Positions 6,250 to 28,569 of a DNA stretch of 64,000 nucleotides are shown here, one piece after another (the stretch's first letter is position 1; each line of letters opens with the position of its first letter). The stretch comes from Janibacter melonis (lineage in GTDB: Bacteria > Actinomycetota > Actinomycetes > Actinomycetales > Dermatophilaceae), in assembly GCF_020567375.1 (NCBI RefSeq), contig NZ_JAJBZM010000002.1:517036-581035 (forward strand). Reading direction: 5' to 3'. The translations under genes were made by a program, and so were the position numbers. The notes below the pieces were generated by a model. It saw only the letters and a list, made by a program, of their open reading frames with translations, did not search any database and was not told the DNA's origin.

Positions 6250-7017
6250 TCAGCCCCCGGAGCGCAGGGAGCGCAGGAGCGCGAGCACGGCGGGGACGTC
6301 CTCGCAGCGCTCGACGCGGTGGCGGGCGGCGGTGTCGCCCTCGCCGACCTTGATCGTCACGTCGTCGGGGCCGGTGGCCTCGAAGACGTGCTCGTCGGTG
6401 ACGTCGTCGCCGAGGTAGACGAGCGCGTCGCTGCCGAGCTCGCGGGCGAGGGCGAGCAGGGCGGTGCCCTTGTCGGCCTCGGCGACGCTCAGCTCGACGA
6501 CCGACTTGCCCCGCATGAGACGCACCCCCTCGGCCGTCGCCGCGTCGTCGGCGATCTCGTCGACGACCGCCACGTCGGCCTCGTCGAGCCCGCGGGTGTG
6601 CAGGACCGCCGCGCTGGGCTTGAGCTCGAGACGCGCCCGCGGGCTGCGCTGCGCGACCTGTGCCTGGAGGTGCCCGACGAGCGCGGCGAGCCGGGCCCGG
6701 GCAGCGGGGTCGAGCTCGGGGGCGGTGCCGCGGCTGGACTCGCCGCCGTGGCTGCCCAGCCGGGTGAGCCTGTCGTCGGACCCGGTGAGGGTCACCAGCG
6801 TCTCGAGGTCGCGCCCGGAGACGAGCGCGGCGTCCGTGCCCGGGACGGCGGCGAGGGCGCGCAGGTCCTCGAGCGTGCCCTCCTGAGCACGGGCCTGCAT
6901 GGGGTCGAGGACGAGCGGGGCGAGCACCCCGTCGAAGTCGGAGGCGACGAGCAGCCGCTCGACCCCGGCGACCCGCTGCAGCGCCGCGACGAGGTCGTCG
7001 GGCAGGGCTGCGGTCAC
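6250..7017 (-). CDS. otsB: Trehalose-6-phosphate phosphatase
   Basis: 255 aa HAD-superfamily phosphatase completing trehalose synthesis from trehalose-6-phosphate. The nucleophile motif is ASDFDGVLAPL (~residue 25); then VSGRDLETL, the K-containing GKSVVELSVAEADKGTALL, and the acidic motif IV VYLGDDVTDEHVFE. The GTG start at 7017 overlaps the otsA stop (GTGA), so the two are translationally coupled. Its end abuts the palindromic block at 6141-6230. Confidence 0.93.
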   Translation of the reverse strand: MTAALPDDLVAALQRVAGVERLLVASDFDGVLAPLVLDPMQARAQEGTLEDLRALAAVPGTDAALVSGRDLETLVTLTGSDDRLTRLGSHGGESSRGTAPELDPAARARLAALVGHLQAQVAQRSPRARLELKPSAAVLHTRGLDEADVAVVDEIADDAATAEGVRLMRGKSVVELSVAEADKGTALLALARELGSDALVYLGDDVTDEHVFEATGPDDVTIKVGEGDTAARHRVERCEDVPAVLALLRSLRSGG

Positions 7018-8459
7018 GACGCGTCCCGTCGGCGCTCGGGGCGCTCGGGCGCGGCCTCGAGGTTGGCGAGGAAGCGGTCGGCCCACACCCGCACGTCGTG
7101 GTCGGCGACCCGCCGACGCAGCGCGCGCATGAGCCGCTCCTTGTCCTTGGTCTCGGTGCCGATGGCGCGCAGGATCGTCTGCTTGAGCCCCTCGATGTCG
7201 TGGGGGTTGCACACGAAGGCCTGGTGCAGCTCGTGCCAGGCGCCGGTGAACTCGCTGAGCACGAGCGCCCCGCCGTTGTCGTGGCGGCAGGTGACGTACT
7301 CCTTGGCCACGAGATTCATCCCGTCGCGAAGGGGGGTGACGAGCATGACGTCGGCGGCGAGGAAGAGGGCGGCCATCTCCTCGCGCGGATAGCTCTGGTG
7401 CAGGTAGTGCACGGCCGGCGACCCGATCGCGCCGTGGTTGCCGTTGATCCGACCCACGGTCGTCTCGACCTCGGTGCGCAGCTGCTTGTACGCCTCGACG
7501 CGCTCGCGGCTCGGCGTGGCGACCTGGACGAAGGTGACGTCGGGCGTGCTCAGCCGGCCGTCGGCGAGGAGCTCCTCGTAGGCCTTGAGCCGGTGCCGGA
7601 TGCCCTTGGTGTAGTCGAGCCGGTCGACGCCGAGGAGGAGGGTCTTCGGGCTGCCGAGCGACGAGCGGATCTCCGCGGCCCGCTCCTGGACCTCCGGGGT
7701 TCGGGCGAGGGCGTCGAGGCCCTCGAAGTCGACGCTGATCGGCACGGCGCTCGCCCGGACGGTGCGCTGGGGGCGCCCCTCGTCGGAGGGGAGGGTGACG
7801 GTCTCCCCCTTCGTGCTCGCGCCGAGGTGCTGGCGGCACGCCCGCACGAAGTTCTGCGCGTCGGCCTGGCGCTGGAAGCCGAGGTAGTCGGCCCCGAGGA
7901 GGCCGGTGAGGAGCTGCTGGCGCCACGGGAGCTGGGCGAAGAGCTCGACCGGCGGGAAGGGGATGTGGTCGAACCACCCGATCCGCACGTCGGGGCGCAG
8001 CTCGCGCACCATCGCCGGGACGAGCTGGAGCTGGTAGTCGTGGACCCACACGACGGCGCCCTTCGCGGCGACCTCGGCGATGGCCTCGGCGAAGCGGCGG
8101 TTGACCCGCTCGTAGGCCTGCCACCACACCCGGCGGAAGCGCGCGGGGACGATGACGTCGTGGTAGATCGGCCACAGGGTGTCGTTGCTGAAGCCCTCGT
8201 AGTACTGCTCGACCTCCTCGGCCGAGACCGGCACCGGGTGGAGCCACATGCCCGCCTCGTCGAAGGGCTCGGGCGCGTCACCGGTGTCGCCGGCCCAGCC
8301 CACCCAGGCGCCGTCGCGGCCGCGCATCACCGAGTCCATCGCCGTGACGAGACCCCCGGGGGAGCGGTGCCACTCGACCTCGCCGTCCGGTCCGACGACC
8401 CGGTCCACGGGCAGCCGGTTGGCTGCGATGACGAAGTCGAAGGTCGTGCGGCGTGCCAT
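7014..8459 (-). CDS. otsA: Trehalose-6-phosphate synthase (GT20)
   Basis: 481 aa cytoplasmic glycosyltransferase joining UDP- or GDP-glucose to glucose-6-phosphate. It begins DFVIAANRLPVDRV and has the GT20 motifs SPGGLVTAMD, VWVHDYQLQLVPAMVR, IGWFDHIPFPP, LLGVDRLDYTKGI and TPLRDGMNLVAKEYV. The ATG at 8459 is preceded by GAGGGAGACC. Together with otsB it forms a two-gene trehalose operon, giving osmotic and desiccation protection. The conserved TPLRDG codons carry one copy of the recurrent CGAAGGGGG motif (7327-7335) using the rare Leu codon CTT. Confidence 0.95.
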   Translation of the reverse strand: MARRTTFDFVIAANRLPVDRVVGPDGEVEWHRSPGGLVTAMDSVMRGRDGAWVGWAGDTGDAPEPFDEAGMWLHPVPVSAEEVEQYYEGFSNDTLWPIYHDVIVPARFRRVWWQAYERVNRRFAEAIAEVAAKGAVVWVHDYQLQLVPAMVRELRPDVRIGWFDHIPFPPVELFAQLPWRQQLLTGLLGADYLGFQRQADAQNFVRACRQHLGASTKGETVTLPSDEGRPQRTVRASAVPISVDFEGLDALARTPEVQERAAEIRSSLGSPKTLLLGVDRLDYTKGIRHRLKAYEELLADGRLSTPDVTFVQVATPSRERVEAYKQLRTEVETTVGRINGNHGAIGSPAVHYLHQSYPREEMAALFLAADVMLVTPLRDGMNLVAKEYVTCRHDNGGALVLSEFTGAWHELHQAFVCNPHDIEGLKQTILRAIGTETKDKERLMRALRRRVADHDVRVWADRFLANLEAAPERPERRRDAS

Positions 8460-16102: not shown

Positions 16103-16816
16103 TCAGCCAGACGTCTGGCCGTCGTCGACGACGAAGGAGGTGCGGGCGCCGTCGCCGTCACGGGCGATGAGACGCAGCTGGTTGCGGTGGAAGCCGTGGT
16201 CGATGCCCCACAGCACGGCCTGGCTGCGCGAGGAGACGCCCATCGTCCGGTAGGCGGCGCGGATGTACGACTTCACCGAGTTGATGCTCAGGTAGCACTG
16301 CTTGGCGATCTCCTGGTTGCTCAGCCCCTCGGTGACGAGCGCGATGACCTCGGACTGGCGCGGGGTCAGGCCCTGCTCCTGCCCGGGCCAGCCGGCCGCG
16401 CGGGGCTCGACGTCCGTCGCGGCCTGCGGGGTGAGCAGGGTCTCGCCGGCGCAGATCCGGCGCAGCGCGGAGACGAGCTCTTGGGCGCTCATCGACTTCG
16501 AGAGCACGCCGGACAGGCCGCGGTCGCGCGCCGCGGCGATGACCTCGGGCCCGGCGGCCCAGGTGTAGAGCACGGTGTGCCCGACCTTGTCGTCGGAGAC
16601 GATCGTGTCGAGCTTGCGGGGGGCGTTCGACGGCGCGGCGAAGGCGTCGTACAGCGCGATGTCGACGGGCTGCGACAGCGGCATGTCGCAGTCCAGCTCG
16701 ACGACGCGGATCTCGTCGGCGAAGGGGGCGAGCATGGCCGCGACGCCGTGGACGACGACCTCGTAGTCGTTGAGGACAGACAGGCGGATGGGCCCGCTGG
16801 GACCGGCTTCGTGCAT
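16103..16816 (-). CDS. LuxR/NarL-family response-regulator-like protein
   Basis: 237 aa. An N-terminal receiver-like domain ([20 protein letters not shown]; candidate phospho-acceptor in [23 protein letters not shown] lysine) is followed by a LuxR-type HTH ([45 protein letters not shown]). The acidic cluster before the phospho-site is ND rather than DD, so phosphorylation by a sensor kinase is uncertain. No kinase is adjacent. A -10 box TATTTT lies six bases before ATG 16816 on the minus strand, which predicts a leaderless transcript. The gene is divergent from the catalase gene and may regulate it. The coupled lipoprotein gene follows after three bases. Confidence 0.85.
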
Positions 16817-16861: not shown

Positions 16862-16879
16862 ACACCCCAAGGGGGGTGT
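16862..16879. promoter_or_regulatory. Palindrome in the LuxR/catalase intergenic region
   Basis: ACACCCC (16862-16868), four-base spacer, GGGGTGT (16873-16879). It is a compact 18-base dyad midway between two divergent genes. It could be an operator for either gene; it resembles short C4/G4 dyads bound by copper-sensing CsoR-type regulators, but no such regulator is nearby. Confidence 0.45.
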
Positions 16880-16963: not shown

Positions 16964-19048
<2,085 letters not shown>

Positions 19049-19061
19049 CGAGAGGAGCAGC

Positions 19062-20243
19062 ATGAGAGCACTCACCTGGCAGGGCACCCGCGACGTGCAG
19101 GTCGTCGACGTGCCGGACCCCCGCATCCAGGAGCCCACCGACGCCGTCATCAAGGTGACGTCGACGGCGATCTGCGGGTCCGACCTCCACCTCTACGAGC
19201 CCCTCGGGCCCTTCCTCGCCCAGGGCGACGTCCTCGGCCACGAGACGATGGGCGTCGTCGAGGAGGTCGGCGCCGAGGTCACCCACATCAAGCCCGGCGA
19301 CCGCGTCGTCATCCCCTTCAACATCTCCTGCGGGCACTGCTGGATGTGCCGGCGCGGCTACACCGCCCAGTGCGAGACGACCCAGGTCACCTCGCAGGAC
19401 AAGGGGGCGGCCCTCTTCGGCTACACCGAGCTCTACGGCTCGGTGCCCGGCGGCCAGGCGGAGTACCTGCGCGTCCCGCAGGCGCACTTCGGGCCGATCA
19501 AGGTGCCGGACGGGGTGCCCGACGAGCGCTTCCTCTACCTCTCCGACATCCTGCCCACCGCCTGGCAGGGCGTGGAGTGGGCCGAGGTGAGCGAGGGCGA
19601 CACGCTGGCGGTCTTCGGGCTCGGCCCGGTCGGTCTGCTCGCCACGCGCATCGCCCGTCACCGCGGCATCCGTGTCATCGGTGTCGACAACGTGCCCGAA
19701 CGGCTCTCCGCCGCCCAGGCGTACGGGGTCGAGGTGCTGAGCACCGACGAGGTCGACGACATCCCCTCGGCGATCAAGGAGATGACCGACGGCCGCGGCG
19801 CCGACGGCACCCTCGACGCGGTGGGCATGGAGGCGCACGGCACGCCGGTCCTCGGCGCGGCCGTAAAGGGCGCGGGACTGCTGCCCGACGCGATCGCCAA
19901 GCCGCTCATCAAGAAGGCCGGGGTCGACCGTCTCGCCGCGCTCTACGACTCCATCAAGTCCGTCCGTCGCGGCGGCACGGTCTCGGTGAGCGGGGTCTAC
20001 GGGGGTCAGTCCGACCCGATGCCGATGATGGAGATGTTCGACCGCGGCATCGCGCTGCGGATGGGCCAGTGCCACGTGCGGCGCTGGGTCGACGACATCA
20101 TCCCGGTCCTCACCGACGACGCCGACGTCTTCGGGGTCGAGACCCTCGCGACGCACCGGCTGCCGCTCGAGGACGCGCCGCACGGCTACGACATCTTCCA
20201 GAAGAAGGAAGACGGCTGCATCAAGGTCGTCCTCAAACCGTGA
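19062..20243 (+). CDS. Zinc-dependent alcohol dehydrogenase (formaldehyde-dehydrogenase-like)
   Basis: 393 aa medium-chain dehydrogenase. Catalytic zinc Cys in TAICGSDLHLYEP, GHETMGVVEEVG signature, the structural-zinc Cys cluster ISCGHCWMCRRGYTAQCE, and the NAD-binding GLGPVGLLATRIARHRG. The insertion and length fit the glutathione-independent formaldehyde dehydrogenase-like branch, whose members act on varied alcohols or aldehydes. GAGAGGAG precedes ATG 19062. It follows catalase by 13 bases and overlaps the next gene (GTGA). Substrate not inferable. Confidence 0.9.
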   Translation: MRALTWQGTRDVQVVDVPDPRIQEPTDAVIKVTSTAICGSDLHLYEPLGPFLAQGDVLGHETMGVVEEVGAEVTHIKPGDRVVIPFNISCGHCWMCRRGYTAQCETTQVTSQDKGAALFGYTELYGSVPGGQAEYLRVPQAHFGPIKVPDGVPDERFLYLSDILPTAWQGVEWAEVSEGDTLAVFGLGPVGLLATRIARHRGIRVIGVDNVPERLSAAQAYGVEVLSTDEVDDIPSAIKEMTDGRGADGTLDAVGMEAHGTPVLGAAVKGAGLLPDAIAKPLIKKAGVDRLAALYDSIKSVRRGGTVSVSGVYGGQSDPMPMMEMFDRGIALRMGQCHVRRWVDDIIPVLTDDADVFGVETLATHRLPLEDAPHGYDIFQKKEDGCIKVVLKP

Positions 20244-21259
20244 GCACCGACGCGTCCCACGCCGTCCCCGCGTCCGGGGGCGTCGCCCTCGTCGCGGGGG
20301 CGTCGCGCGGGCTCGGCTTGCTCGTGAGCATCGAGCTCGCCCGCCGCGGCTACCGGGTGCACGGCTGCGGCCGTGACGCAGGGACCCTCGACCGGGCCGC
20401 GACCATCGTCGCGGCCCGGTCCGGGCGTGGCGAAGGGGGAGCCGGCTCCCCCTTCGTCCCCGCGGTGTGCGACGTCCGCGACGCGGACGCCGTCGAGAGC
20501 TGGGTGCGCTCCGTCGTCGACCTCGAGGGCGGGGTCGACGTCGCGATCCACGTCGCCGGGATCATCCAGGTCGGGCCGGTGTCCTCGACGACGCTCGGGC
20601 ACTTCCGTGACGCCGTCGACACGATGCTCATGGGCCCGGTCCACGTCGCGCTCGCCGTGCTGCCCTCGATGCGCGCCGCCGGCAGCGGGCGGATCGGTGT
20701 CGTCAGCTCCGTCGGCGGGGTCGTCAGCGTGCCGCACCTCCTGCCCTACTCCGTCGCGAAGTTCGGTGCCGTCGGGCTCACCGAGGGCCTGCGGGCCGAG
20801 CTCGCCGGGACCGGCGTCACCGCGACGACCGTCGTGCCCGGCCTCATGCGCACCGGCGGCCACGTCGCCGCCCAGCTCGTCGGGGACGCCGAGCGCGACT
20901 ACGCGTGGTTCGCCCCCGGCGCCTCGCTGCCGGTGCTGTCGATCGGGGCCGAGCGCGCGGCCCGGCGCATCGTCGACGGCGTGCTCGCCGGCCGCTCGCA
21001 GGTCGAGCTCACCCCCCTGACGATGATCGGGCGACGCGTCCACGGCATCGCCCCCGCCCTCACCGTCGGCGTCATGGGGCTCGCCGCCCGGCTGCTGCCC
21101 GACGGGCCCGACCGCGGCCCGTCGATGTCCGCCGAGCGTCCCCGGGTCACCGGGGCCACGGCTCGAGAGCGCCTCGGCTCCCGCGTCGTCGACGCCCTGA
21201 GCGTCCTCGGCGACCGCGCCGCCCGCCGCACCAACGAGCGCGTGGACGGCGGCGCATGA
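20240..21259 (+). CDS. Short-chain dehydrogenase/reductase with internal palindrome
   Basis: 339 aa SDR. Cofactor motif VALVAGASRGLGLLVSIELARRG, the NNAG-equivalent HVAGI, catalytic Ser in GVVSSVGG and YSVAK (YxxxK). The C-terminal ~80 residues extend past the usual SDR end. Residues ~61-72 (SGRGEGGAGSPF) are encoded by a perfect 26-bp palindrome (20431-20456) and look like an insert between beta-strand 2 and the VCDVRD motif. GTG start overlaps the ADH stop, and the ATG of the next gene overlaps its own stop, placing it inside the coupled operon. Confidence 0.88.
   Translation: MSTDASHAVPASGGVALVAGASRGLGLLVSIELARRGYRVHGCGRDAGTLDRAATIVAARSGRGEGGAGSPFVPAVCDVRDADAVESWVRSVVDLEGGVDVAIHVAGIIQVGPVSSTTLGHFRDAVDTMLMGPVHVALAVLPSMRAAGSGRIGVVSSVGGVVSVPHLLPYSVAKFGAVGLTEGLRAELAGTGVTATTVVPGLMRTGGHVAAQLVGDAERDYAWFAPGASLPVLSIGAERAARRIVDGVLAGRSQVELTPLTMIGRRVHGIAPALTVGVMGLAARLLPDGPDRGPSMSAERPRVTGATARERLGSRVVDALSVLGDRAARRTNERVDGGA
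20431..20456. repeat. Perfect 26-bp palindrome inside the SDR gene
   Basis: Arms CGAAGGGGGAGCC and GGCTCCCCCTTCG meet with no loop. It has the same sequence style as the intergenic terminators of this window but sits in-frame in a coding region, adding Gly/Ala/Ser-rich residues. Confidence 0.95.
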
Positions 21260-22278
21260 GCCTGCGACCCGACCCCGGCCTCGTCGACCGCGCGCGCACC
21301 CTCGGGGCGGCCGTCGCCGACGGCGGGGACCTCGACGAGGTGCTCGCCCTCGCCCGCGAGCTGAGCCCGACGGCCCAGCGCCTCGGGTCGGACAGCGCGC
21401 CCTACCTCACCGCGCTGCTCTCGGTCGGCGCGGGCGACCTCACGGTCGCCCGGGTCGTCGAGCCGCACCTCGACGCCGTCGCGATCCTCGCCCAGAGCGC
21501 CGTCGCGCACGAGACGAGCGACGTGACGAGCGACGGCGTGTGGGGCGTGTACGCCGCCGAGGGCCCCGGTCACCACCTGGCCGGCACGCCGGACGAGCAC
21601 GGCGCCTGGACGCTCACCGGTCGCAAGCCCTGGTGCTCGCTGGCCTCCGAGGTGAGCCATGCCGTCATCACCGCCCACACCGGTCCGGGCATGCGACGCG
21701 CCTTCGCCGTCGACCTCGGGCACCCGGGCGTCTCGCACCCCGAGCAGCGGTGGGTCTCGCGCGGGCTGACCCGGGTGCGCTCGACGAGCCTCGAGCTCGA
21801 CGGCGTGCCCGCCCTCCCTCTCGGCGAGGACGGCTGGTACCTGCGACGCCCGGGCTTCGCCTGGGGCGGGATCGGCGTCGCTGCCGTGTGGCTCGGTGCG
21901 GCGACGGCGCTGCGCGACGCGCTCTGCGCCGCGAGCGCCCGACGAGAGCCCGACCAGGTGGCCCTCGTGCACCTCGGCCGAGCCGACACCCTGCTCCATG
22001 CCGCGACCAGCGTGCTCGGCGACGCGGCCCGGGCGATCGACGCCGGGCAGGCCACCGGGGGCGCGGGCGAGCTGCTCGCGGCGCGGGTCCGGGCGACGTG
22101 CGCCGAGGCCGCCGAGGAGCTCGTGCGCATCACCGGCCACGCCCTCGGGCCGGGCCCGCTCACCGGCGACGAGGAGCACGCCCGACGGGTCGCCGACCTC
22201 ACCGTCTACGTCCGCCAGCACCACGCCGAGCGCGACCTCGCCCGGCTCGGCTCCCTCGTGCTCGGGGGCGGGCGATGA
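21256..22278 (+). CDS. Acyl-CoA-dehydrogenase-like flavoprotein
   Basis: 340 aa, shorter than the ~380 aa of standard acyl-CoA dehydrogenases. The middle beta domain is recognisable (VWGVYAAEGPGHHLAG, WTLTGRKPWCSLASEVSHAVITA, matching the family G-x-K-x-W-C-S pattern) and the helical C-terminal domain follows (WLGAATALRDALCAASARREPDQVALVHLGRADTLLHAA). The N-terminal helical domain is reduced and no catalytic Glu is obvious. It may be an oxidase or monooxygenase of this fold rather than a beta-oxidation enzyme. ATGA overlaps at both ends tie it to the SDR and the PIG-L/methyltransferase genes. Confidence 0.78.
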   Translation: MSLRPDPGLVDRARTLGAAVADGGDLDEVLALARELSPTAQRLGSDSAPYLTALLSVGAGDLTVARVVEPHLDAVAILAQSAVAHETSDVTSDGVWGVYAAEGPGHHLAGTPDEHGAWTLTGRKPWCSLASEVSHAVITAHTGPGMRRAFAVDLGHPGVSHPEQRWVSRGLTRVRSTSLELDGVPALPLGEDGWYLRRPGFAWGGIGVAAVWLGAATALRDALCAASARREPDQVALVHLGRADTLLHAATSVLGDAARAIDAGQATGGAGELLAARVRATCAEAAEELVRITGHALGPGPLTGDEEHARRVADLTVYVRQHHAERDLARLGSLVLGGGR

Positions 22279-23651
22279 GCGGGCCCCGCCCCTTCGACGC
22301 CGCCGACCCCGGCACGGACGAGGCGACCTGGCTGCTCGACCCGCGGTGGGACACGGTGCCCTCGACGTCGGCAGCGGACCTCGTCGCCCCCTTCGAGCAG
22401 GTCGTCGTCCTCGCCCCCCACCCCGACGACGAGAGCCTCGGCCCGGGCGGGGTCCTCGCGGCCGCCGCGGCCGCCGGGATCCCCACCCACGTCGTCCTCG
22501 CCTCCGACGGCGAGCGCTCGCACCCGCAGGGATCGACCGACCCCGCCGCGCTCGCCGCGGTGCGGCGCGAGGAGGTCGCCGCCGCGGTGGCGCACCTCGG
22601 CGCCTCGGTCGAGCTGCACCGCCTCGCCCTCCCGGACGGCGGGCTCGCCGACCACGTCGAGACGATGGCCGCGGCGGTCGTCGACCTCGTCGGCGACCGG
22701 CTCGCCCTCGTCCTCGCCCCGTGGCGCGAGGACGGGCATCCCGACCACCACGCGGCCGCCGACGCGGCCTGCCTCGTCGAGCGCACGACGCAGGCCCAGG
22801 TGGCCCTCGTGCCCGTGTGGCTGTGGCACTGGGCCACCCCCGACGAGCTGCCGTGGGACCAGCTCGAGCTCGTCGACCTCGGGCCGGCCGAGCTCCGCGC
22901 GAAGGCTGCCGCCGTGGCGAGCCACCGCAGCCAGGTCGAGCCGCTCGGCCCGGGGCACGGCGACGGCGTGCTGCTGGGGCAGCACGTGCGCGTGCGCTTC
23001 GAGCGGGTCGTCGAGACGATCATCCGCACGACGCCGCTGCCCCGCGTCCCCCGCGAGGACGGGTCCTGGGAGCGCGGCGCGGCCTTCGACGCGATGTACG
23101 CCGCCGACGACGACCCGTGGGACTTCGGGTCCTGGTACGAGCGGCGCAAGCGGGCGCTGACGCTCGCCGTGCTCGCGAAGGAGCGCTACGGCCGGGTGCT
23201 CGACCTCGGCTGCGCGACCGGTGAGCTCACCCACGGGCTCGCCGGGCGGGCCGACGCGATCACCGCGGTCGACCTCAGCGAGAGCGCGCTCGAGATGGCC
23301 CGTGCCCGTCCGCCGGCGCGCTCGGCGCCGCAGGTCCGGTGGGTGCAGGGCGAGTGCCCCGACGTCCTGCGCGAGCTGCTCGAGACCGGCGAGGACTACG
23401 ACCTCGTCGTGCTCTCCGAGATCGGCTACTTCCTCACCGGCTCCGAGCTGCTCTCGACGCTGCGGTCGGTCCGTCGGCTGCTCGCGGACGGCGGCGAGCT
23501 CGTGCTCGTCCACTGGAGCCACCCGACGGCCGACATCCCGCTCGACGGCGTCGCCGTGCACGCCCAGGTGCGCTCCGTGCTCGGCGAGCCACGGGTCGCC
23601 TACCGCGACGCCGACGTGCTCCTCGACGTCTACGGCGGGCAGGTCCGGTGA
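22275..23651 (+). CDS. PIG-L (LmbE) deacetylase fused to SAM methyltransferase
   Basis: 458 aa two-domain protein. Residues ~40-255 are a PIG-L/LmbE deacetylase with zinc motifs APHPDDESLGPGG (~residue 49) and HPDHHAA (~153). Residues ~270-458 form a class I methyltransferase of the NodS type: YAADDDPWDFGSWYERRKRALT, motif I VLDLGCATGELTHGLAG, AVDLSESALEMAR. PIG-L enzymes remove N-acetyl groups from GlcNAc-containing conjugates; NodS-type enzymes N-methylate the freed amine. A coupled deacetylation and N-methylation of a sugar is the natural inference. Start and stop overlap both neighbours by ATGA/GTGA. Confidence 0.88.
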   Translation: MSGPRPFDAADPGTDEATWLLDPRWDTVPSTSAADLVAPFEQVVVLAPHPDDESLGPGGVLAAAAAAGIPTHVVLASDGERSHPQGSTDPAALAAVRREEVAAAVAHLGASVELHRLALPDGGLADHVETMAAAVVDLVGDRLALVLAPWREDGHPDHHAAADAACLVERTTQAQVALVPVWLWHWATPDELPWDQLELVDLGPAELRAKAAAVASHRSQVEPLGPGHGDGVLLGQHVRVRFERVVETIIRTTPLPRVPREDGSWERGAAFDAMYAADDDPWDFGSWYERRKRALTLAVLAKERYGRVLDLGCATGELTHGLAGRADAITAVDLSESALEMARARPPARSAPQVRWVQGECPDVLRELLETGEDYDLVVLSEIGYFLTGSELLSTLRSVRRLLADGGELVLVHWSHPTADIPLDGVAVHAQVRSVLGEPRVAYRDADVLLDVYGGQVR

Positions 23652-24358
23652 GCGACCGGGTCGCGCGGGTCGCCGTCGTCGTGCCCGCCCGCGACGAGCA
23701 GCTGCTCGTCGGCTCGTGCCTGGCGGCCCTGCTCACGAGCCGCGACCACCTCCGGCGCTCACGCCCCGACGTCGTCGTCGACCTGCTCGTCGTCCTCGAC
23801 CGCTGCACCGACGCCACGGCACCGGTCGTCGCGGCCGCCGGTGTCTCCGCGGTCGTCAGCGACCACGGCCAGGTGGGCGCGGCCCGCGCGGCCGGCGCCC
23901 GGGGCGTGCTCGCCCGGTCCCGTGCCGCCGGGGTGCCCGACGACGCGCTGTGGCTCGCCTCGACCGACGCCGACACCGTCGTGCCGGTCGACTGGCTGGC
24001 CGTCCAGGTCGAGCTCGCCGAGGGCGGCCTCGACGCCGTCGTCGGCACCGTCGAGCCCGGTGACGTGGAGGACCCGCGGGCCCTCCTCGCCTGGCACTGC
24101 CGCCACGAGCTCGGCGAGGGCCACCCCTACGTGCACGGCGCCAACCTCGGCGTGCGCGCCAGCACCTACCTCGCCGTCGGCGGGTACCCGCCCCTCCCGC
24201 TCCACGAGGACGCCGTCCTCGTCGACGCAGTCCGCGCGACCACCGACCGCTGGGTCGCCACGGACCGCACCCGCGTCTGCAGCTCCGGCCGTCGTGCCGG
24301 CCGCTGCGACGGGGGCTTCGCCACCTACATCGACGAGATCACCAGAGAGGCGGTCTAG
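23648..24358 (+). CDS. Family 2 glycosyltransferase
   Basis: 236 aa GT-A fold glycosyltransferase. VAVVVPARDEQLLVGSCLAAL at the N-terminus, the metal-binding ASTDADTVVP (DxD), and acceptor-side motifs HGANLGVRASTYLAVGGYP and HEDAVLVDAV. No membrane segment, so it is cytoplasmic or peripheral. GTG start overlaps the stop of the preceding fusion gene; the next gene starts on the base after the TAG stop. Donor and acceptor unknown. Confidence 0.88.
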   Translation: MSDRVARVAVVVPARDEQLLVGSCLAALLTSRDHLRRSRPDVVVDLLVVLDRCTDATAPVVAAAGVSAVVSDHGQVGAARAAGARGVLARSRAAGVPDDALWLASTDADTVVPVDWLAVQVELAEGGLDAVVGTVEPGDVEDPRALLAWHCRHELGEGHPYVHGANLGVRASTYLAVGGYPPLPLHEDAVLVDAVRATTDRWVATDRTRVCSSGRRAGRCDGGFATYIDEITREAV

Positions 24359-25429
24359 ATGCGCATCGCGGTCCTCGCGACGTCTCGTAACCCCCTTCGC
24401 CAGCCCTGGCTCGGGGGCCAGGAGTCGCACACCGGCCTGCTCGCGCAGGCCCTGCGCGCTCGAGGGCACCACGTGACGTTGCACGCCCGGCCCGGGTCGG
24501 ACCCGGCGCTGGCCGACGAGATCGTGCCCTACCCCGACCTGCCGCCGTTGTCGGTGGCGGCCGCCGCAGACCCCGACGTGCCCCCGCTCGCGATGATGCG
24601 CGACCACGCGGCCTTCACGAGCGCGATGTCGCTCCTGCTGCGCGACGGCGGGGTCGACCTCGTGCACAACCAGAGCCTGCACCACCTGCCGCTCGCGATG
24701 AGCGCGGTCCTCGACCTCCCCCTCGTCACGACCCTGCACACCCCGCCCCTGCCGATGATGGAGATGGGCGTCGCGCTCGCCGACCCGCGCAACCGCTACG
24801 TCGGCGTGAGCCAGACGACGGCCCGAGCCTGGACGACCCTGCCGCAGCCCGCGACGGTCATCCGCAACGGCGTGCCCACCGGTGGCGGCCCTCCCGGCCC
24901 GGGCGGCGACCACCTGCTGTGGGTCGGTCGGATCACCGCCGAGAAGGGCGTCGACATCGCCATCGCCGTCGCCCGGGCCATGGGGTGCCGGCTGCGCATC
25001 GCCGGGCCCGTCTACGACCCCGAGTACTTCGAGTCCGTCATCGCCCCGGTGCTCGGCCCCGACGTCGAGCTGCTCGGCCACCTCAGCTCCGAGGAGCTCG
25101 TGCACGAGCGCGACCACAGCGCCGTGAGCCTGGTGACCTCGCGCTGGGAGGAGCCCTTCGGTCTCGTCGCGGCCGAGTCGATGGTGCGCGGCACCCCGGT
25201 CGTCGCGCTCGACCGTGGGGGTCTGCGCGAGGTCGTCGGGCCGCGCGGCGGTGTGCTCGTGCCGGGCCAGGAGGACGACGGGCTCGTCTGCCGCGTCGTC
25301 GAGGGGGTACGGGCGGCCCTCCGCCTCGACCGCCAGGACGTCGCGGACTGGGCGCGCAGCACCCACGACATCGAGCTCATGGTCGACCGCTACGAGCAGC
25401 TCTTCGAGGACGTCGTGAGGTCGCGATGA
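24359..25429 (+). CDS. Family 4 glycosyltransferase
   Basis: 356 aa GT-B glycosyltransferase. N-terminal WLGGQESHTGLLAQALRARGHHVTLHA, donor-binding LLWVGRITAEKGVDIAIAVARAMG, and the E-x7-E motif SRWEEPFGLVAAESMVRGTPVVALDRGGLREVV. This is the MshA/PimB-like superfamily, but specificity cannot be read. Together with the PIG-L domain encoded two genes upstream it recalls the mycothiol logic (GT4 then deacetylase). Coupled to the next gene by ATGA. Confidence 0.9.
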   Translation: MRIAVLATSRNPLRQPWLGGQESHTGLLAQALRARGHHVTLHARPGSDPALADEIVPYPDLPPLSVAAAADPDVPPLAMMRDHAAFTSAMSLLLRDGGVDLVHNQSLHHLPLAMSAVLDLPLVTTLHTPPLPMMEMGVALADPRNRYVGVSQTTARAWTTLPQPATVIRNGVPTGGGPPGPGGDHLLWVGRITAEKGVDIAIAVARAMGCRLRIAGPVYDPEYFESVIAPVLGPDVELLGHLSSEELVHERDHSAVSLVTSRWEEPFGLVAAESMVRGTPVVALDRGGLREVVGPRGGVLVPGQEDDGLVCRVVEGVRAALRLDRQDVADWARSTHDIELMVDRYEQLFEDVVRSR

Positions 25430-26400
25430 AGGTCGGGATCTACGTGCACCACCACGGCGCAGGCCACCTGCGCCGGGCCCGCTCGATCGCCGAGGAGCTG
25501 CGCGCACGGGGGGCCGAGGTCACCCTGCTCGGCTCGCGCGGCGACGTCGACATCGCCCTGCCCCGCGACGACGACGGGCCGCCCGCCGACCTCGTCGGCA
25601 CCACCGCCGACGGGCAGCTGCACTGGGTCCCCCTCCGCCACGAGGGACTGCGCGAGCGGATGGCGGCGGTCGCCGCCTGGGTCGCGCAGGAGGACCCCGC
25701 CGTCATGGTCGTCGACGTCTCCGTCGAGGTCACCGCCTTCGTCCGCCTGCTCGGCGTCCCCGTCGTCGTCGTCGCCCAGCCCGGGCTGCGCGACGACCCG
25801 GCCCACGAGCTCGGCTGCCGCCTCGCCGAGGCGATCATCGCGCCCTGGCCCTCGTCGGTCTGCCCGGCGCCGCACCTGCGCCGCTGGGAGGACAAGGTCG
25901 CCCACGTCGGCGGGATCAGCGCGCTGCGCCCCGGCCCGCCGGTGCCCCGCGAGCCGCTCGCCGTCCTCCTCGGCGGGGGTGACGGCTGGCCCGACCCCGC
26001 GCTGCCCGAGATGGTCACCTCGGCCGTGCCCGACCTGCGCTGGCAGGTCGTCGGCGGGTCGAGCTGGGTGAGCGACCTCGGACCGCTGCTCCAGCGGGCC
26101 TGCGTCGTCGTCAGCCACGCGGGCCAGAACGCGGTCGCGGATCTCGCCGCCCTCGAGGTGCCGGCGGTCGTGGTGCCGCAGCCGCGCCCCTTCGACGAGC
26201 AGGACTGGATGGGTCTCGCCCTCGCCCAGGGCCGCTACTGCGTCACCGTCGGCGCGGCCCTCGCCGCGCACCCCGAGGAGGTCGACTGGTCGCACGTCGT
26301 CCACGCGGCCCAGGACTTCCCCACCCGGTGGCAGGACTGGGGCACCGACGGGGCCGCCGAGCGAGCCGCCGAGGTCATCCTGAGGGTCGGCCGTGGCTGA
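25426..26400 (+). CDS. GT-B glycosyltransferase (MurG/GT28-like C-terminus)
   Basis: 324 aa. The N-terminal Rossmann motif is VGIYVHHHGAGHLRRARSIAEELRARGAEVTLLG; the C-terminal donor-binding part LLQRACVVVSHAGQNAVADLAALEVPAVVVPQPRPFDEQ resembles the GT1/GT28 UDP-sugar site (the GxGQ/HAG region of MurG and UGTs). It belongs to a MurG-like family found beside other glycosyltransferases in actinobacteria. ATG overlaps the previous stop; the next gene starts eight bases before its stop. Confidence 0.85.
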   Translation: MKVGIYVHHHGAGHLRRARSIAEELRARGAEVTLLGSRGDVDIALPRDDDGPPADLVGTTADGQLHWVPLRHEGLRERMAAVAAWVAQEDPAVMVVDVSVEVTAFVRLLGVPVVVVAQPGLRDDPAHELGCRLAEAIIAPWPSSVCPAPHLRRWEDKVAHVGGISALRPGPPVPREPLAVLLGGGDGWPDPALPEMVTSAVPDLRWQVVGGSSWVSDLGPLLQRACVVVSHAGQNAVADLAALEVPAVVVPQPRPFDEQDWMGLALAQGRYCVTVGAALAAHPEEVDWSHVVHAAQDFPTRWQDWGTDGAAERAAEVILRVGRG

Positions 26401-27238
26401 GGGCACCGTCGTCGTCACCGTCGCGCACGGGCGCCACGACCACCTGCTGCGCCAGCGCCGCCTGCTGCGCGAGGTGGCCCCCGGCACCCCGCACGTCGTC
26501 GTCGCGATGGACGACGCACAGATCGTCGCCCTGCTGCGCGACGACCCCCACGTCGGCGTCGTCGAGGTGGCCGGCCACCCCGACGGGCTGCCGCTCGCCG
26601 CCGCCCGCAACGCGGGCGTCTCGACCGCGCTGGACTCCGGCGCCGATCTCGTCGTCCTGCTCGACGTCGACTGCCTGCCCGGACCGGGACTGCTCGAGGG
26701 CTACGAACGGGCCGCGGCCCAGGTGCCCGACGACCTGCTCTGCGGGCCGGTCACCTACCTGCCCGAAGGGGTCCTGCCCGAGCTGGCCGACGAGCTCGCC
26801 GGGCTCTCCCGGCCGCACCCCGCCCGTCCGGCACCCCCGCCGGGGGAGCTCGTGAGGGACGGCGACCACGACCTCTTCTGGTCGCTCTCCTTCGCCGTCA
26901 CCCCGTCGACCTGGCGCACGCTCGGCGGCTTCTGCGAGGAGTACGTCGGGTACGGCGGCGAGGACACCGATCTCGCGTGGACGGCCCGCGACCGCGGCGT
27001 CGGGCTCACCTGGGTGGGCGGCGCGCAGGCGTACCACCAGTGGCACCCCGTCTCCTCGCCGCCGGTCGAGCACGTCGTCGACATCGTGCGCAACGCCCGT
27101 GTGGCGCACCGGCGGTGGGGCCGCTGGCCGATGCGTGGATGGTTGGCCGAGCTCGAGGCGCTCGGGCTCGTGCGCTGGGAGGCCGACGGACCGGTGGTTG
27201 CGGGGGAGTCGGTCCCCGGCCCTACCATCGGCTCGTGA
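26393..27238 (+). CDS. Family 2 glycosyltransferase with galactosyltransferase-like C-terminus
   Basis: 281 aa. DxD in VVLLDVDCLPGPGLL (~residue 85), and FCEEYVGYGGEDTDLAWTARDRG, the G-x-E-D motif of the glyco_transf_7C group. Its start is GTG 26393, overlapping the upstream gene by eight bases. Its stop is overlapped by the GTG of the aminotransferase gene, and its 3' end contains that gene's -10 box. It is the last of four glycosyltransferases in the run. Confidence 0.87.
   Translation: MAEGTVVVTVAHGRHDHLLRQRRLLREVAPGTPHVVVAMDDAQIVALLRDDPHVGVVEVAGHPDGLPLAAARNAGVSTALDSGADLVVLLDVDCLPGPGLLEGYERAAAQVPDDLLCGPVTYLPEGVLPELADELAGLSRPHPARPAPPPGELVRDGDHDLFWSLSFAVTPSTWRTLGGFCEEYVGYGGEDTDLAWTARDRGVGLTWVGGAQAYHQWHPVSSPPVEHVVDIVRNARVAHRRWGRWPMRGWLAELEALGLVRWEADGPVVAGESVPGPTIGS
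27223..27228 (+). promoter_or_regulatory. -10 box of aminotransferase gene (leaderless)
   Basis: TACCAT followed by six bases and GTG 27235. It lies inside the end of the glycosyltransferase gene, giving the last cistron a possible promoter of its own. A weak TTGCGG lies 19 bases upstream. Confidence 0.45.
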
Positions 27239-28569
27239 TCACCCAGCAGCGCGTCCTCGCGACCCAGATCCCCGGCCCGCGGTCGGTCCAGATGCAGCAG
27301 CGCAAGCTCGCCGCCGTCGCCGACGGGGTCGGCACCGGCCTGCCGGTCTACGTCGAGGCCGCCGAGGGCGGCATCGTGCGTGACGTCGACGGCAACCAGC
27401 TCATCGACTTCGGCTCCGGCATCGCCGTGACGAGCGTGGGCAACCGCAACCAGCGCGTCATGGACGCCGTGACCGCGCAGGTGCAGGACTTCACCCACAC
27501 GTGCTTCATGGTCACCCCCTACGAGGAGTACCTCGAGGTGTGCGAGGCGCTCGCCGAGGTCACTCCCGGCGACCACGCGAAGAAGTCCGCGCTCTTCAAC
27601 TCCGGCGCCGAGGCGGTCGAGAACGCCGTGAAGATCGCGCGGCACGCGACCGGCCGCAGCGCGGTCGTCGCCTTCGACCACGGCTACCACGGCCGCACCA
27701 ACCTCACGATGGCGCTCACGGCGAAGAACATGCCGTACAAGGACGGCTTCGGCCCCTTCGCGGGCGAGGTGTACCGGGCGCCGATGGCCTACCCCTACCG
27801 CTGGCTCACCGGCGAGAAGCAGTGCGCCGACGAGGCCTTCGACGCCTTCACCTCGATGGTCCACGCGCAGGTCGGCGAGCAGAACTGCGCAGCCGTCATC
27901 CTCGAGCCGATCCAGGGCGAAGGGGGATTCATCGTCCCGCCCGCCGGGTGGACGAAGCGGGTGGCCGACTGGTGCCGCGAGCACGGCATCCTCTTCGTCG
28001 CCGACGAGGTGCAGTCGGGCTTCTGCCGCACCGGTGACTGGTTCGCCAGCGACCACGAGGGCGTCGTCCCCGACCTCATGACGACGGCCAAGGGCATCGC
28101 CGGCGGCATGCCGCTCGCGGCGGTCACCGGTCGCGCCGAGCTCATGGACGCCGTCCACGGCGGCGGTCTCGGCGGCACCTACGGCGGCAACCCCGTCGCC
28201 TGCGCGGCGGCCCTCGCGAGCATCGAGACGATGCGCGAGGAGGACCTCGCCGGGCGCGCCCGCGAGATCGAGGCGATCCTCGTCCCGCGCCTGCAGGCGC
28301 TCGCCGACTCGACGGGCGTCATCGGCGAGGTCCGCGGCCGGGGCGCGATGATCGCGATCGAGCTCGTGTCGGACCTCGACCTCAAGACGCCGGCGCCCCA
28401 GCTGGCCGCCGCGGTCAACGCCGCGTGCCACGAGCGCGGTCTCGTCACCCTCACCTGCGGCACCTACGGCAACGTCTTCCGCTTCCTGCCCCCGCTCACC
28501 ATCGGCGACGACCTCCTCGCCGAGGGGCTCGACATCCTCGAGGAGGCCTTCGCGCAGGCCCTGCGCTGA
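27235..28569 (+). CDS. gabT: 4-aminobutyrate--2-oxoglutarate transaminase (class III PLP)
   Basis: 444 aa PLP enzyme converting GABA to succinate semialdehyde, or acting on a related omega-amine. Family motifs: FNSGAEAVENAVKIARHATGR, AFDHGYHGRTNLTMALT, ILEPIQGEGGF, VADEVQSGFCRTG, and the PLP Lys in TTAKGIAGGMPLAAV (~residue 285). No succinate-semialdehyde dehydrogenase lies next to it. Its GTG overlaps the glycosyltransferase stop, but it may also be transcribed alone from the internal -10 box. GEGGF is encoded with the recurrent CGAAGGGGG motif (27918-27926). Confidence 0.9.
   Translation: MITQQRVLATQIPGPRSVQMQQRKLAAVADGVGTGLPVYVEAAEGGIVRDVDGNQLIDFGSGIAVTSVGNRNQRVMDAVTAQVQDFTHTCFMVTPYEEYLEVCEALAEVTPGDHAKKSALFNSGAEAVENAVKIARHATGRSAVVAFDHGYHGRTNLTMALTAKNMPYKDGFGPFAGEVYRAPMAYPYRWLTGEKQCADEAFDAFTSMVHAQVGEQNCAAVILEPIQGEGGFIVPPAGWTKRVADWCREHGILFVADEVQSGFCRTGDWFASDHEGVVPDLMTTAKGIAGGMPLAAVTGRAELMDAVHGGGLGGTYGGNPVACAAALASIETMREEDLAGRAREIEAILVPRLQALADSTGVIGEVRGRGAMIAIELVSDLDLKTPAPQLAAAVNAACHERGLVTLTCGTYGNVFRFLPPLTIGDDLLAEGLDILEEAFAQALR

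Follow-up and report, generated by a model that had tools for sequence, protein, structure and literature searches.

A modular, stress-associated gene block of Janibacter melonis as a candidate locus for a soluble amino-sugar glycoside

What would a run of nine tightly packed genes, rich in glycosyltransferases, make in the actinobacterium Janibacter melonis, and do all nine serve one pathway? The run occupies positions 19062-28569, on the plus strand, of a 64-kb stretch of contig NZ_JAJBZM010000002.1 (hereafter the window; about 70-77 percent G+C) in a genome of 3.49 Mb. A preliminary description had read it as a coupled operon for an unassigned glycoconjugate. With gene borders re-derived, the nine consecutive genes do overlap or abut as that description had it—the junctions are, in order, -4, -4, -4, -4, 0, -4, -8 and -4 bp—and a catalase of 694 residues does stop 13 bp 5' of the first of them, an alcohol dehydrogenase (ADH). 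The "coordinated stoichiometry" that it drew from these overlaps cannot be read from them: eight of the nine same-strand pairs from the catalase to the terminal aminotransferase overlap or abut, but so do 12 of the 36 such pairs elsewhere in the window, and overlap alone is therefore weak evidence in so compact a genome. The signal above chance lies in gene sets conserved in other genomes rather than in the overlaps. The block is made up of a conserved triad (module A), a linked trio of glycosyltransferases (module B), a looser cassette of catalase, ADH and short-chain dehydrogenase/reductase (SDR), and a probable passenger, the aminotransferase GabT. Our favored reading, held with moderate confidence, is that the block is modular, is associated with stress and would direct the synthesis of a soluble amino-sugar glycoside, which module B would extend.

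Module A comprises a flavoprotein of the acyl-CoA dehydrogenase (ACAD) fold (21256-22278), a PIG-L/LmbE de-N-acetylase fused to a NodS-like S-adenosylmethionine (SAM) methyltransferase (22275-23651), and a small GT2 glycosyltransferase, GT2a (23648-24358), all on the plus strand. Relatives were fetched by the fused deacetylase-methyltransferase alone, independently of its neighbors. Among the best 80 of 494 confirmed loci, mostly from Micrococcales by title, an ACAD-like gene lies directly upstream of the fusion in 79 (the exception, L084, is a contig end) and a GT2 gene directly downstream in 78; the whole triad is contiguous and co-directional in 77. A second set of 20 loci, which overlaps the first and is not summed with it, has the ACAD-like gene upstream in 18, the GT2 downstream in 16 and both in 14. 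Its GT2 exceptions stand before the ACAD-like gene (L054, L055, L129), further downstream (L041) or on the other strand (L043), and L107 has no GT2 within range. That the sets share loci shows, for instance, in L059 and L226, which lie on equally long contigs. Because the triad is contiguous in 77 of 80 loci and the neighboring families are varied—the commonest downstream Pfam family, Zn-ADH, accounts for 7 of 56—the triad is kept while its flanks change. Module B falls outside the fetched flanks of module A in most of the 100 loci (80 + 20). Within the order, the fusion scores above 190 bits in 18 of 99 genomes, J. melonis included; in some others its halves occur apart.

The core is not confined to the Actinomycetota. 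Searches matched 56 plasmid records, and with two follow-up searches 15 regions were opened, chosen for variety and not at random. By annotation, ACAD, PIG-L and SAM methyltransferase are separate adjacent genes in that order in 14 of the 15, carried by Acinetobacter, Pandoraea, Comamonas and Sphingomonas (two each) and by Bradyrhizobium, Komagataeibacter, Roseomonas, Paracoccus, Roseivivax and Kitasatospora (one each); in the fifteenth region, from Leisingera, PIG-L has a different setting. Beside the plasmid trio, 9 of the 14 regions have a co-directional glycosyltransferase gene and 2 have one on the opposite strand; in the other 3, where the gene table is incomplete, none is annotated beside it. 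GT2a of the window itself matches glycosyltransferases of Acinetobacter soli (profile, E 5e-43), Comamonas antarctica and Sphingomonas parapaucimobilis, and in a record from Acinetobacter baumannii the relatives of PIG-L/methyltransferase and ACAD adjoin each other (tblastn). The fusion of deacetylase and methyltransferase is a form seen in Actinomycetota, and separate genes the form seen on Pseudomonadota plasmids. A contig titled Stenotrophomonas maltophilia (L133) also has the fused form, which would reflect either a mislabelled assembly or a transfer.

The enzyme that most needs interpretation is the flavoprotein. Its AlphaFold model has a predicted local distance difference test (pLDDT) score of 91.6, and its fold is that of the ACADs: VIA matched it to 4kto_A, a putative isovaleryl-CoA dehydrogenase, with Z 33.4 and a root-mean-square deviation of 2.6 over 329 aligned residues. 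In Foldseek the top hit is a putative acyl-CoA dehydrogenase and the second KijD3; after these, DnmZ, a further nitrososynthase and DszC stand mixed with true dehydrogenases. With a profile that includes proteobacterial members, DszC (1.5e-14) leads and KijD3 (7e-13) also precedes human short-chain acyl-CoA dehydrogenase, as do TdsC, one Thermus dehydrogenase and two type-2 domain proteins, one of them described as a flavin monooxygenase. What sets the family apart is the active site. Acyl-CoA dehydrogenases carry their catalytic glutamate at one of two sites, in the EGT loop or on helix G. In the ACAD-like family the column of the EGT glutamate holds an invariant glutamine (43 of 43 sequences), next to a one-residue gap, and in all 43 there is no glutamate within 3 columns of the EGT site or within 2 of the helix-G site. 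As a control, eight dehydrogenases of the same genome, chosen blind to the motif, have a glutamate in the EGT loop (7 of 8) or at the helix-G site (1 of 8, L262). With glutamate absent from both sites, the protein is therefore no ordinary acyl-CoA dehydrogenase; the label "ACAD-like" of the preliminary description holds for the fold and needs correction as to the glutamate. The protein resembles flavin monooxygenases as much as it does dehydrogenases. Class D flavin monooxygenases and nitrososynthases (DszC, KijD3, DnmZ, 3mxl) share its fold, but their identity to it is about 18-23 percent and VIA ranks dehydrogenases first.

The other two members of module A look intact by their motifs. In the PIG-L domain (PF02585), H49, P50, D51, D52 and E53 together with D153, H155, D157 and H158 are invariant in 16 of 16 rows; in GT2a (PF00535; model pLDDT 94.7), both aspartates of the DxD motif, D107 and D109, are invariant in 34 rows, and a fold search returned generic GT2 enzymes only (WrtF, TarP, GpgS). 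The methyltransferase domain scores 50.8 bits against PF05401 (cut-off 24), which places it in the NodS family, and 53.4 bits, a higher score, against Methyltransf_25; it falls far below the NodS equivalog NF041650 (52.6 vs 300 bits). For the block as a whole, the enzyme families named in the preliminary description agree with Pfam and NCBIfam. A profile of the fusion matches 4isc, NodS (3ofj), 1uan and diacetylchitobiose deacetylase; for the methyltransferase domain the best match in the PDB, by a wide margin, is 4isc (E 1.3e-61), with 3ofj second (E 1.5e-27). The entry 4isc is titled "Methyltransferase" only, so that the structure of a relative has been solved without a function being assigned to it.

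From these enzyme families we infer a chemistry, including its substrates and the order of its steps. The GT2 of module A would attach an N-acetylhexosamine to an acceptor, the PIG-L domain would take off the acetyl group, and the fused NodS-like domain would methylate the freed amine; the flavoprotein may then oxidize the sugar, possibly at nitrogen. Nod-factor synthesis proceeds through NodC, NodB and NodS, and module A has in common with it the logic of a GT2, an N-deacetylation and a NodS-family N-methylation. It differs in using PIG-L instead of the NodB fold, and in having the ACAD-fold flavoprotein where Nod-factor synthesis has an acyltransferase.

Module B consists of a GT4 (24359-25429; PF13439, PF00534), a glycosyltransferase with a GT28 C-terminal domain and weak similarity to MurG (25426-26400; PF04101), and a GT2-type enzyme, GT2b (26393-27238; PF02709 at 22.4 bits, just below the cut-off of 23), again all on the plus strand. 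In the family of the window it would add further sugars. We compared 59 genomes of that family, from 52 genera, and drew maps of 37 rows. The GT28-like gene is present in 28 of the 59 at E<=1e-10, J. melonis included, and the fusion in 26; both modules occur in 21, B only in 7, A only in 5 and neither in 26 (Fisher p 6e-6, uncorrected for kinship). Where both are present they lie no more than 10 kb apart in 16 of 21 genomes, module B being upstream, downstream, convergent or divergent, and this repeated joining in varied orientations argues for a working link. In Nostocoides sp. Soil756 (L059) the two modules adjoin each other. In most loci of the 37 rows GT2b adjoins the GT28 gene. One genome counted as B only, G034, has diverged relatives of module A adjoining module B; there a DNA photolyase gene (L241, 9033-10394, minus strand) lies between the two. 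In two further genomes, module B without A stands among other glycosyltransferases together with an AT3-SGNH acyltransferase (L242) or a WcbI-domain protein (L247).

The genes upstream of module A form a looser association. The catalase (16964-19048, plus strand) is of the long type with a C-terminal domain (Pfam Catalase, Catalase-rel and Catalase_C) and scores 897 bits, below the HPII equivalog cut-off of 1102. Taking 600 bits or more as a long catalase, 25 of the 59 family genomes have one, including 17 of the 26 that bear the fusion (Fisher p 0.003), and in 8 of these 17 it lies within 11 kb of module A; of the short catalases of A-bearing genomes, none of 18 lies within 11 kb of A and two lie within 40 kb. 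The ADH (19062-20243, plus strand; PF08240, PF00107) is a Zn-dependent medium-chain enzyme that passes no NCBIfam cut-off, and the SDR (20240-21259, plus strand) matches PF00106; both appear accessory. In 7 of the 100 loci the gene directly after GT2a is a relative of the ADH, at 62-75 percent identity. Among the family rows, the order catalase-ADH-SDR-ACAD-fusion-GT2-GT4-GT28-GT2 is repeated in G251 and G275 (L222 and L223), L235 has ADH and SDR next to module B alone, and L227 has catalase-ADH-SDR beyond module B on the other strand. Taken together, these positions point to a cassette that tends to accompany module A, its ADH and SDR being facultative.

Divergent from the catalase is a LuxR/GerE-type protein (16103-16816, minus strand; PF00196, E 1.4e-14), whose N-terminal part has no receiver-domain match in Pfam and which is perhaps a candidate regulator of the locus; the catalase-ADH-SDR cassette may be under its control. 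Its homologs (E<=1e-8) are present in 11 of 149 fetched loci; the locus sets overlap and some of these loci are duplicates, L069 and L234 being on equally long contigs. Between regulator and catalase lies an inverted repeat at 16862-16879 (7-base arms, 4-base gap), a possible operator. As a conserved operator it fails: a strict pattern search did not recover it in the relatives' loci, the sole match (L103) being about 8 kb from module A.

At the other end, GabT (27235-28569, plus strand) is a class III aminotransferase that exceeds the NCBIfam cut-offs for 4-aminobutyrate (GABA) transaminase (747 vs 639 bits; TIGR00700, 599 vs 506.65 bits). It adjoins the block in 2 of the 37 family rows, in the same place in L223 (G275) and on the opposite strand in L228; the class III aminotransferases on the 20 kb of 8 of the 100 loci are only distantly related to it (31-33 percent identity) and are read as another enzyme. 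GabT is an ordinary GABA transaminase and probably a lineage-specific passenger. We therefore reject a single nine-gene pathway, since GabT rarely adjoins the block and ADH and SDR are facultative. The preliminary description had also made its case depend on conservation outside the strain, and this is found: the order from catalase to GT2b recurs in two family genomes, and the core recurs across Actinomycetota and Pseudomonadota.

What is the product for? Stress genes are neighbors of the set in most of the loci opened in other phyla. In Comamonas antarctica and C. endophytica the quartet of core genes stands between otsA and otsB in one co-directional, nearly gapless run. Catalase and otsBA lie near the quartet on an Acinetobacter ursingii plasmid, trehalose synthase on one from A. 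soli, catalase and Dps in S. parapaucimobilis, a Mn-catalase and a universal stress protein in Roseivivax, Ku/LigD in Bradyrhizobium, a "general stress protein" in Komagataeibacter and CsbD in Pandoraea; Roseomonas shows BrkB alone, and Sphingomonas FARSPH has no annotated stress gene and a partial long catalase at the edge of the stretch. In A. baumannii, genes for a glycosyltransferase, a SAM methyltransferase, LmbE and an ACAD-related protein (ACICU_02432-02435) are listed as one operon that is down 31-62 fold in colistin-dependent mutants, along with otsAB, for trehalose synthase and phosphatase, and a catalase (PMC5660220), and the set is placed beside blsA in PMC6240043; the portions of these two papers covered here assign it no function. 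The operon as listed there has the four annotated activities in a row, as in the window, and differs in that deacetylase and methyltransferase are separate and that module B, ADH and SDR are missing. The window has otsB and otsA of its own (6250-8459, minus strand; PF02358 and PF00982), some 8.5 kb upstream of the catalase. The tie to catalase and stress proposed at the outset is supported by the long catalases near module A in the family and by the stress-gene neighbors in other phyla, and the core probably makes a sugar-based protective molecule.

Several observations weigh against the favored reading. The stress link is suggested by gene neighborhood and by one transcriptome, of colistin-dependent mutants and not of stressed cells; the plasmid neighbors were counted without a random control, and the locus tags of PMC5660220 were matched by product name and order, not by sequence. 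Among the 80 best loci a long catalase is found in few (L092, L122), and the flanks of module A are diverse, Ferritin/Dps being the commonest upstream Pfam family at just 6 of 54. A trehalose link in actinobacteria was considered and dropped, relatives of the window's otsA occurring in 4 of the 149 loci, all of them Pseudomonadota. The seven family genomes with module B and no A also count here, some of them having B among other glycosyltransferases and WcbI or acyltransferase proteins, as would fit a surface glycan. Finally, VIA-align puts true acyl-CoA dehydrogenases first, many of them tied, in a comparison that is uninformative on families outside its listing. A bolder form of the favored reading strikes us as unlikely. 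In it the product would be a general stress metabolite common to Actinomycetota and Pseudomonadota, belonging to a survival programme that also includes catalase, Dps and trehalose; the nitrososynthase-like flavoprotein would oxidize this N-methylated amino-sugar glycoside at nitrogen, giving a hydroxylamine or nitrone. In some lineages trehalose itself might be the acceptor, as the otsA-quartet-otsB run of Comamonas might indicate.

Could the enzymes instead make or modify an oligosaccharide of the cell wall or capsule, with the stress genes as mere neighbors? Such a surface or envelope glycan would suit the four glycosyltransferases of the block, the weak MurG similarity of the GT28 protein, and the larger clusters of some family genomes in which module B keeps company with GT4s, a WcbI-domain protein and an acyltransferase. 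A scan of the ten block proteins, however, found no polyprenyl-phosphate transferase, lipid-carrier enzyme, flippase, polymerase or exporter, and none of the nine proteins from ADH to GabT has a clear membrane segment (GT28 is marginal, with two scanning windows just above threshold). A soluble product is favored for these reasons; together with the absence of module B from the fetched flanks of most module A loci, they make the surface glycan, in our estimation, rather unlikely. An acylated glycoside is a further option, in which stress and glycoside genes would be co-regulated neighbors and the ACAD-like enzyme would supply an unsaturated chain, much as for a Nod factor. The ACAD fold, with its VIA Z of 33.4 to a putative isovaleryl-CoA dehydrogenase, and the NodS-like domain speak for it; with neither catalytic site holding a glutamate in any of the 43 sequences, whereas all eight control dehydrogenases have one, and with no acyltransferase in the block, we judge it quite improbable.

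More improbable still is a low-molecular-weight thiol or cofactor. The pairing of a GT4 with a PIG-L deacetylase is common to the block, mycothiol (MshA-MshB) and bacillithiol (BshA-BshB) synthesis, and the catalase linkage would suit such a product. However, MshA (C2:496404, 593 bits), MshB (C1:1104265) and MshC (C1:224406) each score above their curated cut-offs and are all elsewhere in the genome, MshD not having been searched for, and the block proteins fall short of the corresponding models: the GT4 reaches 35.8 of 462.5 bits for MshA (TIGR03449) and 35.1 of 273.7 for BshA, and the PIG-L domain 20.7 of 224 for MshB and 49.2 of 182.5 for BshB. The block also holds no cysteine ligase or acetyltransferase. 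The preliminary view that this is no mycothiol pathway is borne out, and an unassigned glycoconjugate pathway is supported by the deacetylase, the NodS-like methyltransferase and the several glycosyltransferases. In the open-licence PMC literature we found no function for the gene set, as far as titles, abstracts and opened passages go, and the passages searched in PMC12029717 and PMC12742793 do not name it.

We return, then, to the soluble amino-sugar glycoside and to what it would mean. For annotation, the finding brings a correction—proteins of this set that are called "acyl-CoA dehydrogenase" are without that enzyme's catalytic glutamate. For bacterial biology, a gene set of four activities, found in soil actinobacteria as well as on plasmids of Acinetobacter and Sphingomonas and often next to genes for catalase, Dps or trehalose, would fill a gap in the known chemistry of bacterial survival.

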